A DNA stretch of 64,000 bases from Treponema sp. (GTDB lineage Bacteria > Spirochaetota > Spirochaetia > Treponematales > Breznakiellaceae): NCBI GenBank assembly GCA_031256035.1, contig JAIRRJ010000067.1, positions 1 through 64,000 of the forward strand. Reading direction: 5' to 3'. Positions 26,199-28,434 of this stretch are shown here, piece by piece. The position numbers and the translations under genes are program-made. The notes beneath the pieces were generated by a model that did no database searches, was not told the DNA's origin, and saw nothing but the letters and a program-made list of their open reading frames with translations. The first letter of the stretch is position 1; each line of letters opens with the position of its first letter.

Positions 26199-26459
26199 AT
26201 GAAACATCTTAACAATTTATCAAAAGGCAAGGCGTATGTAATATGCCTCTGCATGATCGCGTTCATTTTTGGCGCGATGTGCGTAACGGGTTATCTGTCA
26301 GACGATTATTCGCTTGTCCCGGCAGGGGCCTGCTTGGCTGCTTTAGTTACCATAACCACAACGTATATGGGGATACAAACGGCAAACAACGGCGTGAAGG
26401 GCAAGTACTGGAACAGCGACATGGCTGAATTTGAAAATAAAGAAAAGGAGGGGAAGTAA
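26199..26459 (+). CDS. Two-TM small membrane protein, holin candidate
   Basis: 86 residues. Two TM segments (AYVICLCMIAFIFGAMCV and LVPAGACLAALVTITTTYMGI) joined by a short acidic loop, then a charged C-terminal tail ending in ENKEKEGK. This is a class-II-holin-like topology. It is directly followed by a peptidoglycan-enzyme-like gene and spanin-like genes, which supports a holin. Confidence 0.7.
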   Translation: MKHLNNLSKGKAYVICLCMIAFIFGAMCVTGYLSDDYSLVPAGACLAALVTITTTYMGIQTANNGVKGKYWNSDMAEFENKEKEGK

Positions 26460-26933
26460 ATGAGAATTACCGCTGACTTAACAAAAGGCGAGCTGCTGGT
26501 GAACGGCGCGAAATTTTCCGTGAGCTGCAAAGTGCGGACTGTCCGGGACGGAACGCGCAGGGGCCACGAAGTAGTGCGCTCCATACCGGATAATTTGCCC
26601 TACGATCCCCGGTCGTTTCCTTCTGGCTTGTGGAATGTTACCGGCGTTGAATGGCAGAAAGACAAAGGCTTTGATGTGAAAACATACGGCCCTGTAAAAA
26701 TCCGCACAGACGCCTGGCAAAAAGTAAAAGCCTGGGAACTTGACGCGGACGGCGATTATCGCAAAGAAACCGATCAGCAGGTAAAAGACGCGGGGTATCT
26801 TTTGCATTACTCGGACAGCAGTACCACGCTCGGGTGCATACGCATTGACAGCCCTGCTGATGCCGAAAGGGTCGCCAATTTCATCCAACGCCTGTTTGAA
26901 AAAAGCGAAGCTGTACAACTGGAGGTGTTATGA
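26460..26933 (+). CDS. YkuD-like (L,D-transpeptidase fold) peptidoglycan enzyme, candidate endolysin
   Basis: 157 residues. Near the C-terminus: GYLLHYSDSSTTLGCIRIDSP, a His plus GCIRI motif with the catalytic Cys as in YkuD/DUF2778-type proteins (usual S-x-GC-I-R). No signal peptide. The neighbours are a two-TM protein before and spanin-like genes after, so it is the most likely lysis enzyme of the phage, acting on peptide cross-links. Family placement rests on the short motif. Confidence 0.68.
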   Translation: MRITADLTKGELLVNGAKFSVSCKVRTVRDGTRRGHEVVRSIPDNLPYDPRSFPSGLWNVTGVEWQKDKGFDVKTYGPVKIRTDAWQKVKAWELDADGDYRKETDQQVKDAGYLLHYSDSSTTLGCIRIDSPADAERVANFIQRLFEKSEAVQLEVL

Positions 26934-27037
26934 TCGCCCAATTTTTCTTTGTTCAGTTAGTGGTGCCGCTGCTTGTGCCGTCCGTTTTTTTTCTTATCGG
27001 GTATTTATTCAATTTATATTCTAAGGAGGGATCATGA
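26930..27037 (+). CDS. Small TM protein in lysis cassette (35 aa)
   Basis: 35 residues from ATG 26930, overlapping the previous stop (ATGA) and preceded by GGAGG. One TM segment, QLVVPLLVPSVFFLIGYLF. Its stop overlaps the start of the next gene, so translation appears coupled. Possible holin accessory or antiholin; no family recognised. Confidence 0.62.
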   Translation: MIAQFFFVQLVVPLLVPSVFFLIGYLFNLYSKEGS

Positions 27038-27447
27038 ATGAAAAAAATCGTTTTGTTCTTAATCTTGCTATCGTTATTGTCGCCGTCATTTCTGTCGGCG
27101 CAATCGGCTTCTTCATTGGGAGAGGAAATCTACAGCGACCTGCTCAACTTGCAGATGTTGATAGACGAATTGAATTCGCGCTTGAAGAAAGTAAACGAGA
27201 GCTTGAACAGGAGCGAGCAATCAGTAACGGACTTAGGGCTGTTAGGGAACGAGAAAGATCTGTTATTGACGGAATTGCAGAATCTACTCGACAGGCGCGA
27301 ATGGACACTCAAGCAGCTATCAATGCTGGTGGAGGAGCAGCAGACAGCCTACAAAAAATCATTGTTCAAATGGAAATTTACAACCGTTACGTTGGCAATA
27401 TCGAGCGTCAGCTTGCTGAGTATAGCGATCTACCAGGGGCTGAATAA
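27034..27447 (+). CDS. i-Spanin-like protein, overlapping pair member A
   Basis: 137 residues from ATG 27034; AGGAGGG five bases upstream. N-terminal TM anchor FVLNLAIVIVAVISVGAIGF followed by a long charged periplasmic coiled coil (DRRIEFALEESKRELEQERA...GIAESTRQARMDTQAAI) and a short end. This is the classic Rz/i-spanin layout, in a lysis cassette. Nearly its whole length is overlapped in the +1 frame by member B (27038-27451). Confidence 0.65.
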   Translation: MNEKNRFVLNLAIVIVAVISVGAIGFFIGRGNLQRPAQLADVDRRIEFALEESKRELEQERAISNGLRAVRERERSVIDGIAESTRQARMDTQAAINAGGGAADSLQKIIVQMEIYNRYVGNIERQLAEYSDLPGAE

Positions 27448-27451
27448 ATAA
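27038..27451 (+). CDS. Spanin-like secreted/membrane protein, overlapping pair member B
   Basis: 137 residues from ATG 27038, four bases after member A's ATG, sharing its ribosome site. Sec signal MKKIVLFLILLSLLSPSFLS with a plausible AQS cleavage, then coiled coil (DLLNLQMLIDELNSRLKKV; LLLTELQNLLDRREWTLKQL) and a C-terminal TM segment TTVTLAISSVSLLSIAIY. No lipobox Cys, so not a standard o-spanin. Its stop overlaps the start of the protease gene (TAATG). Both frames of this stretch look like real proteins. Confidence 0.65.
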   Translation: MKKIVLFLILLSLLSPSFLSAQSASSLGEEIYSDLLNLQMLIDELNSRLKKVNESLNRSEQSVTDLGLLGNEKDLLLTELQNLLDRREWTLKQLSMLVEEQQTAYKKSLFKWKFTTVTLAISSVSLLSIAIYQGLNK

Positions 27452-28434
27452 TGCCGGTGCGGAAAATCAGGGTGCTTGAGCTTGCCCGTGTGGGTAGGTG
27501 GGGTCTGGACGGCAGCGAGATCACGCAAGCGGACATCATCGAGATGGCACAGACTATGGCGGGCAAACGCCCGGTGATTATCGGGCATAACACAGACCGC
27601 GCTCCCAAGTTCGGGGACGTGCTTGACTGCTGGCCGTCCAGCAACGGGAATGCTCTTATTGGCCCTGTTATGTTTAGCGAAGCAGGCGACAAGCTCTACG
27701 AGGGGAATTATTACGATGGCTGGTCAATATCCATGCCGAGGAGGGACAGTGACAACAAACGGGTGCTGCACCATCTTGCGATACTCGGCGCGATGCCGCC
27801 GAAAATTCCCGGCCTTGCGGAGCTTGAGCAAGTAACGATCAATTTCGGCGAAGGCGGGTCATCTGCCGCCGCTGAAAAAGATAATTTCAAATTTTCCGGG
27901 GCAATCCCGGAAAGGGAGGATAACGAGACTATGACCGAAGAAGAAAAAAAGGCTATGGCCGACAAGGATGCGAAGATCAAGGAACTTGAAGCAGAAAACA
28001 AGTCTTTGACGGAAGCGGCCAAAGCAGCGCCAGCAGCGCAAACTCCGCCGACAGCAGAGCCGAAAGCGGACGTGCCGCCTGCGGCTGGCGCGGCGACCGG
28101 CAGCACTGAGTTTGCTGACATGCAAAACAGGGTCAACGAACTTGAGGCCGCTCGCCGGAAGGAACGGCTGGAAGTTTTTGCCCGGGACATCGCGGGGAAA
28201 ATCCCTGCGGGGATTACCGCGAAAGCAAATGCTTTGGCTGGACAAATTGAGCATGTCGGCTCATTCGATTTTTCCGATAACGGGAAAACCGAAAAGCGGG
28301 ACGCACTGTGGTTGTTAGGTGAAGTCCTACGGGATTGGCCGCAGCCGAAACTCGGGGCGTCGGGAATCAATTTCAGCGATGGCGCGGACGGCGAAAAGTC
28401 AGTCAATTGGGCCGCCACCGCACAAAAAATGTAG
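27451..28434 (+). CDS. Mu I-like head maturation protease with C-terminal scaffold
   Basis: 327 residues. N-terminal protease part: MPVRKIRVLELARVGRWG, RPVIIGHNTDRAPKFGDV, and DGWSISMP (the Ser of the family's Ser protease region), then LHHLAILGAMPPKIPGL. From about residue 160 it becomes a coiled-coil, Ala/Pro-rich scaffold. In Mu the I gene carries protease and, from an internal start, scaffold Z; the same is likely here (see 27931). Confidence 0.88.
   Translation: MPVRKIRVLELARVGRWGLDGSEITQADIIEMAQTMAGKRPVIIGHNTDRAPKFGDVLDCWPSSNGNALIGPVMFSEAGDKLYEGNYYDGWSISMPRRDSDNKRVLHHLAILGAMPPKIPGLAELEQVTINFGEGGSSAAAEKDNFKFSGAIPEREDNETMTEEEKKAMADKDAKIKELEAENKSLTEAAKAAPAAQTPPTAEPKADVPPAAGAATGSTEFADMQNRVNELEAARRKERLEVFARDIAGKIPAGITAKANALAGQIEHVGSFDFSDNGKTEKRDALWLLGEVLRDWPQPKLGASGINFSDGADGEKSVNWAATAQKM
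27931..28434 (+). CDS. Internal in-frame scaffold start (Mu Z-like)
   Basis: ATG 27931 (MTEEEKKAMADKDAKIKELE) is in frame with the protease gene, with GGGAGG 13 bases upstream. It would give a 167-residue scaffold protein, mirroring gene Z inside I in Mu. The spacing to GGGAGG is long, so this is an inference by analogy. Confidence 0.5.
   Translation: MTEEEKKAMADKDAKIKELEAENKSLTEAAKAAPAAQTPPTAEPKADVPPAAGAATGSTEFADMQNRVNELEAARRKERLEVFARDIAGKIPAGITAKANALAGQIEHVGSFDFSDNGKTEKRDALWLLGEVLRDWPQPKLGASGINFSDGADGEKSVNWAATAQKM

Follow-up and report, generated by a model that had tools for sequence, protein, structure and literature searches.

Results

Two genes share almost all of their DNA in a Mu-like prophage

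The window, a stretch of 64,000 nucleotides from Treponema sp. (assembly GCA_031256035.1, contig JAIRRJ010000067.1, positions 1 to 64,000), carries a Mu-like prophage with recognizable portal (phrog_113), minor head (phrog_220) and protease (phrog_976) genes. Between a presumed endolysin gene and the gene for the head maturation protease lie two genes, designated A and B, which are read from the same strand (Table 1). The initial annotation had described them as two 137-codon frames opened by a single ribosome-binding site, and both frames proved to lie exactly as it placed them. The 410 nt from 27038 to 27447 are common to both genes, i.e. about 99% of the 414 nt of each. The AGGAGG sequence lies 4 nt from the start codon of A and 8 nt from that of B, and the heptamer ATGAATG contains both start codons, with the TGA of an upstream 35-aa ORF between them. 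Translation of A and B would thus draw on a common 410 nt, with starts 4 nt apart and one ribosome-binding site. We infer that B is produced in excess over A, since B begins with ATG at the better spacing, whereas TTG is the start codon of many A genes.

Table 1. The overlapping genes and neighbouring features in the window
Feature	Position	Strand	Description and basis
Holin-like small membrane protein	26199-26459	+	86 aa; two hydrophobic stretches by eye
Presumed endolysin	26460-26933	+	157 aa; position, plus GCIR motif
Single-TM ORF	26930-27037	+	35 aa; TGA at 27035-27037, between the A and B start codons
Ribosome-binding site AGGAGG	27024-27029	+	Common to A and B; sequence, spacing and recurrence in relatives
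Gene A	27034-27447	+	137 aa; N-terminal TM without Cys, long periplasmic helix; sequence, AlphaFold2 and selection
Gene B	27038-27451	+	137 aa, +1 frame relative to A; signal peptide (no lipobox), long helices and C-terminal TM; sequence, AlphaFold2 and selection
Mu-like head maturation protease/scaffold	27451-28434	+	phrog_976, E 4.7e-8; ATG overlaps the stop codon of B

The holin-like protein gave no Pfam match and no useful PHROG match; it has a motif, NNGVKGK(Y/F), in common with a 76-aa protein encoded beside the pair at locus L137, for which the match to a holin family is itself weak (phrog_1299, E 0.0055). The presumed endolysin matched nothing in Pfam, PHROGs or PDB sequences, and a homologue with 78% identity occupies the same place at locus L084. 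Its GCIR motif is one that we take to be reminiscent of L,D-transpeptidase folds. The 35-aa ORF, which has a weak PHROG match of unknown function and no separate counterpart at the equivalent place in L084, may be a chance ORF or a pinholin-like peptide.

Relatives of A and B are found at the same loci

As single queries, the A and B proteins of the window found no match among IMG/VR viral contigs, and tblastn searches of INPHARED phage records were likewise negative. The first relatives came from the window's own genus, and both frames were open in each. Profiles of A (A1) and B (A2), run separately against 200 genomes of the family, matched 44 and 53 genomes, respectively, and the matches, each significant separately, fell largely at the same places, so that homologues of each product were found in other genomes at the same loci. 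A wider B profile (A4) extended the reach to another family of the same order and, in a different part of the phylum, to a single genome (L219); weak A4 matches (E near 1e-4) within long ORFs were disregarded as generic coiled coils, and locus L169 was rejected as a false relative. The A/B pair is also carried by IMG/VR contigs (L168, L223-L226), and termite-gut Treponema and Spirochaetaceae MAGs make up most of the named records that possess it. Neither protein matched a known spanin family. The similarity of A to DUF2514 is weak, sub-threshold (E 0.001) and of a kind to which coiled coils are prone, and PDB sequence searches returned generic coiled coils only.

For further analysis we assembled a set of 67 loci at which B is complete and intact, leaving out those truncated at the end of a contig or showing visible decay. 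These loci are diverse, with identity between branches often near 20%. The start of A lies exactly 4 nt 5′ of the ATG of B in 40 of them. Among the excluded loci, L094 retains an intact B with one stop codon in A, and L105-L107 are broken; these four loci carry stop codons or frameshifts, in a single frame or in both, which shows that decay of the pair occurs and makes them useful as a neutral comparison. At L111 (L131), frame A continues past the stop codon of B into a downstream phage gene to give a 290-aa product, an apparent fusion with a head/tail protein.

Both frames are under purifying selection

Frame A is open across the overlap in all 67 complete loci from spirochaete genomes, which are related to one another and thus do not represent 67 independent trials; none of them has an open third frame. 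With the B protein held fixed, an open A would arise by chance at a mean frequency per locus of 6.4% (codons shuffled) or 4.3% (codons resampled); at the window locus alone, the corresponding figures for synonymous recoding of B are 1.5% with shuffled codons and 0.5% with pooled codon usage. The recurrence of an open A from locus to locus is much stronger evidence than the chance figure at the window by itself.

Selection was assessed with overlap-aware rates, in which all possible and all observed changes were classed by their effect in both frames, using 18 pairs of related loci; the A1 and A2 alignments were rejected for pattern scans as too diverged. Differences per site amounted to 0.135 for changes nonsynonymous in both frames, 0.226 for those synonymous in A only, 0.305 for those synonymous in B only and 0.66 for those synonymous in both. 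The resulting dN/dS of A was 0.55 (0.45-0.66) where B changes are nonsynonymous (NN/NS) and 0.25 (0.11-0.57) where they are synonymous (SN/SS), while that of B was 0.38 (0.32-0.45; NN/SN). The same pseudo-frame in 42 single-coding control genes gave 1.14 (1.05-1.25) and 1.02 (0.72-1.41); these controls were neighbouring homologous ORF pairs chosen by ORF length and similarity, and any few spurious ORFs among them would have blurred the contrast and not created it. By subset, the dN/dS of A was 0.46 (0.37-0.55) at orphan loci and 0.64 (0.49-0.80) at phage loci. Purifying selection thus acts on A and on B beyond the level of single-frame controls, and on this basis it is virtually certain that both are genes. 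The initial annotation had considered both frames plausible and had allowed that homologues or selection might be confined to one, marking the other as a chance ORF. Instead, open frames at every complete locus, selection on each frame and separate homologues for each support the two of them.

A and B differ in their predicted membrane anchors

Protein A has an N-terminal hydrophobic segment and no other at all 67 loci. At the same 67 loci, B has a signal peptide, no hydrophobic segment in its middle and a C-terminal hydrophobic segment, so that the anatomy first noticed in the window (signal peptide, rod and C-terminal TM) is present throughout. AlphaFold2 models of the window proteins consist of helices 3-31 and 37-131 in A (mean pLDDT 80.8) and helices 2-66 and 71-136 in B (mean pLDDT 73.9). 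According to the positive-inside rule, the basic residues that precede the C-terminal TM of B do not obviously favour a C-in orientation.

To be scored as having a lipobox, a protein needed a lipobox-like triplet before a Cys, a hydrophobic stretch before it and polar sequence after it. None of the B proteins has one. The A proteins of L120, L197-L201, L206, L209 and L226 do, and that of L216 is marginal; L197-L200 and L226 are near-copies, so that the number of separate cases is about five or six. Many of the A proteins encoded by chromosomal copies contain AGC inside the TM, and were not called lipoproteins because the sequence stays hydrophobic after it. The A protein of the window contains no Cys, nor is any other outer-membrane anchor visible in it. 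An outer-membrane lipoprotein partner with a lipobox Cys is therefore missing from the window pair and is found in a minority of relatives only, where it is A, and for this reason we have not filed the pair as an Rz/Rz1 spanin. Nor is the pair a unimolecular spanin, which would combine an N-terminal lipobox and a C-terminal TMD on one protein, as B is without a lipobox. The initial annotation had called A a textbook i-spanin. The N-terminal TMD (type II) and periplasmic rod on which that assignment was based are indeed present in A, but the lipobox that occurs in its place in a minority of relatives is found in A and never in B.

Phage copies of the pair accompany unrelated hydrolases

In phage relatives the pair lies directly or nearly directly downstream of a hydrolase gene. 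Pfam or PHROG matches identify CHAP (L131), Amidase_2 (L139), Peptidase_M15_4/PHROG endolysin (L135) and DUF261 (L128, L129) proteins in this position, and CHAP-, M15- and C39-like genes were recognized by motif or by eye at L168, L197-L201, L203, L204, L207-L209, L213, L216 and L223-L226. A lysis cassette is thus defined by Pfam/PHROG matches at L128, L129, L131, L135 and L139, and by position only in the window. The placement of the pair among lysis genes by the initial annotation therefore holds in phage relatives, although in the window itself the endolysin is assigned from its position and the holin-like gene from hydrophobicity. The association of the same pair with unrelated hydrolases in otherwise different phages is our main argument that the phage copies very likely function in lysis, and a spanin-like role for them appears well supported by position.

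Two side observations concern the presumed endolysins. At L128 and L129 the gene immediately before the pair, where an endolysin would be expected, encodes a DUF261 (PF03196) protein; this family is known from Borrelia, and its members may be phage peptidoglycan hydrolases or other lysis proteins. At L203, L204, L207, L208, L213 and L223-L225, C39-peptidase-like presumed endolysins (YYTQRNN...GACNVT) precede the pair and a small terminase-like gene follows it, a recurring phage type in treponemes.

One branch of pairs resides in the chromosome

At L068-L083 and L085-L101 no phage genes were seen in the flanks examined, and the pair is surrounded by housekeeping genes. These chromosomal copies group together in a single branch (support 0.948), inside which the phage locus L168 is nested, and within the branch the start codon of A is usually TTG and that of B is ATG. 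Some copies from different species share their chromosomal site (L071/L072, L085/L095/L096, L097/L098), while others have a downstream gene (L075/L082) or upstream genes (L068/L076) in common. Dual selection persists at the same-site copies, with a dN/dS of A of 0.63 (0.42-0.88). The genome of the window itself has a second, solitary chromosomal pair (G000:C111:14821-15231). The chromosomal branch is probably a domesticated derivative of the phage pair. A role of the DLP12 lysis module in envelope turnover or vesicle release has been proposed (PMC7918800), and a similar role for the chromosomal copies is suggested here only as an analogy.

One genome (G112) contains at least five near-identical copies or ends of the pair (L081, L103, L121-L123), several of them at contig breaks and flanked by intergenic repeats (GTCATTGCGAG...GAAGCAATCC). 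Integron cassettes were rejected as carriers of the multi-copy orphans, the repeats being dispersed between genes and not attC-like by eye. A mobile unit with fixed ends was also rejected, in that homology is mostly confined to the pair and near-identical copies within one genome run into the 3′ flank.

Discussion

It is reasonably probable that A and B together constitute a two-component, spanin-like lysis complex. In the arrangement that we envisage, the C-terminal TM would fix B in the inner membrane (type I, N-out), A would be anchored by its N-terminus, and the rods of the two proteins would pair in the periplasm; upon removal of peptidoglycan by the endolysin, the A/B complex would disrupt the outer membrane. 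The charge pattern before the C-terminal TM of B and the many family members that lie outside phages count against this view. Where A is a lipoprotein, its place would be the outer membrane and that of B the inner one. Based on the lipobox found in A of some relatives and in no B, A possibly represents the outer side and B a type I inner-membrane i-spanin. This reversal of the roles first assigned to the two proteins is a tentative one, for which the case comes close to even. In the window and most relatives the TM of A looks uncleaved, so a candidate link to the outer membrane is provided only by those A proteins that bear a lipobox.

Other readings concern the status and the origin of the pair. 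It is extremely improbable that just one of the two frames, be it B or A, is a gene, and that composition or nucleotide-level constraint has produced the other as a by-product. Closely related frames may be conserved passively, and the decayed copies (L094, L105-L107) could be read in this sense, but such an explanation is opposed by the calibrated control genes, by frame A being open at 67 of 67 loci despite very low identity and by a hydrophobic topology that is constant in both frames. The fast evolution of doubly synonymous sites, at 0.66 differences per site, excludes a general nucleotide constraint, which we rejected also in view of a third frame that is full of stops. A quite improbable origin for the pair is an ancestral host envelope function that phages later picked up. 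The many solitary chromosomal copies, some vertically inherited and under dual selection, are what such a history would leave; the greatest diversity and all outer branches are nevertheless found in phages, and the chromosomal copies make up a single branch (0.948) that includes a phage member, L168.

The roles of the two proteins could also be those of the initial annotation, with A serving as a type II i-spanin by virtue of its N-terminal TM and B acting in some manner at the outer membrane. In the window and at most loci A does have a plain N-terminal TM and rod like those of lambda Rz, and the frame of B is +1 to that of A, the same relation as between Rz1 and Rz; we nevertheless consider this assignment unlikely, as every B lacks a lipobox and ends in a C-terminal TM, while A is a predicted lipoprotein at several phage loci. 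It is improbable, too, that A and B are inner-membrane lysis regulators of the antiholin, releasin or pinholin-like kind. Both proteins could be anchored in the inner membrane, their position in a lysis cassette would fit, and Mu possesses an inner-membrane lysis regulator, gp25 (PMC9239132). On the other hand, separate holin-like genes are often present, and the long periplasmic rods and the lipobox of some A proteins would better suit a task at the outer membrane. We therefore regard a pair of spanin type as the more probable identity of A and B.

In the full-text literature covered, which included few subscription papers, we found nothing relevant on Treponema spanins or on an architecture of this sort, and no description of how phages open the spirochaete envelope. 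If correct, the spanin-like complex would suggest how this may be accomplished, add to the four architectures described for spanins, offer a candidate for a type I i-spanin, so far named as no more than a possibility, and raise the question of why termite-gut treponemes retain a solitary copy. The pair is also an unusually clear and deeply conserved case of gene overlap over 99% of length, diverse enough for studying the co-evolution of two proteins. We tentatively propose that A and B represent a distinct class of spirochaete phage spanin, with near-fully overlapping genes, a type I inner subunit with a C-terminal TM and an outer anchor on the other subunit, one lineage of which has been domesticated as a solitary pair with both frames kept.

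Among known spanins, the embedded class is that of lambda Rz/Rz1, and the overlapped class that of P2 LysB/LysC and Mu gp23/23.1. As in these two-component systems, A and B are two small envelope proteins encoded in overlapping frames of a lysis cassette, one frame is +1 to the other and a helical periplasmic rod with an N-terminal anchor is present. Unlike them, B combines a signal peptide and C-terminal TM and lacks a lipobox, which in some members is located on the other protein, A. In the embedded class, the start codon of about 70% of o-spanins falls at 0.4-0.5 of the i-spanin gene (Kongari et al. 2018, PMC6139136), whereas the overlap of A and B is near-total, with starts 4 nt apart. A and B would thus fall outside the embedded, overlapped, separated and unimolecular classes described by these authors, in agreement with the suggestion of a new spanin architecture in the initial annotation. 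A type I inner-membrane protein with a C-terminal TMD lay outside their search criteria and was nonetheless named by them, with no example given, as a possible i-spanin, for which B is now a candidate. The unimolecular spanin T1 gp11, predicted to be mainly beta (PMC6139136), resembles the lipobox-bearing members in joining an N-terminal lipoprotein signal to a C-terminal TM, but in A/B these anchors are split over two proteins from two frames, and the rods are helical. Finally, the chromosomal branch recalls DLP12 SRRz/Rz1 of E. coli (PMC7918800), in which spanin-type genes are likewise kept in the chromosome outside an active phage, and differs from it in being a solitary pair without an adjoining holin or endolysin gene.
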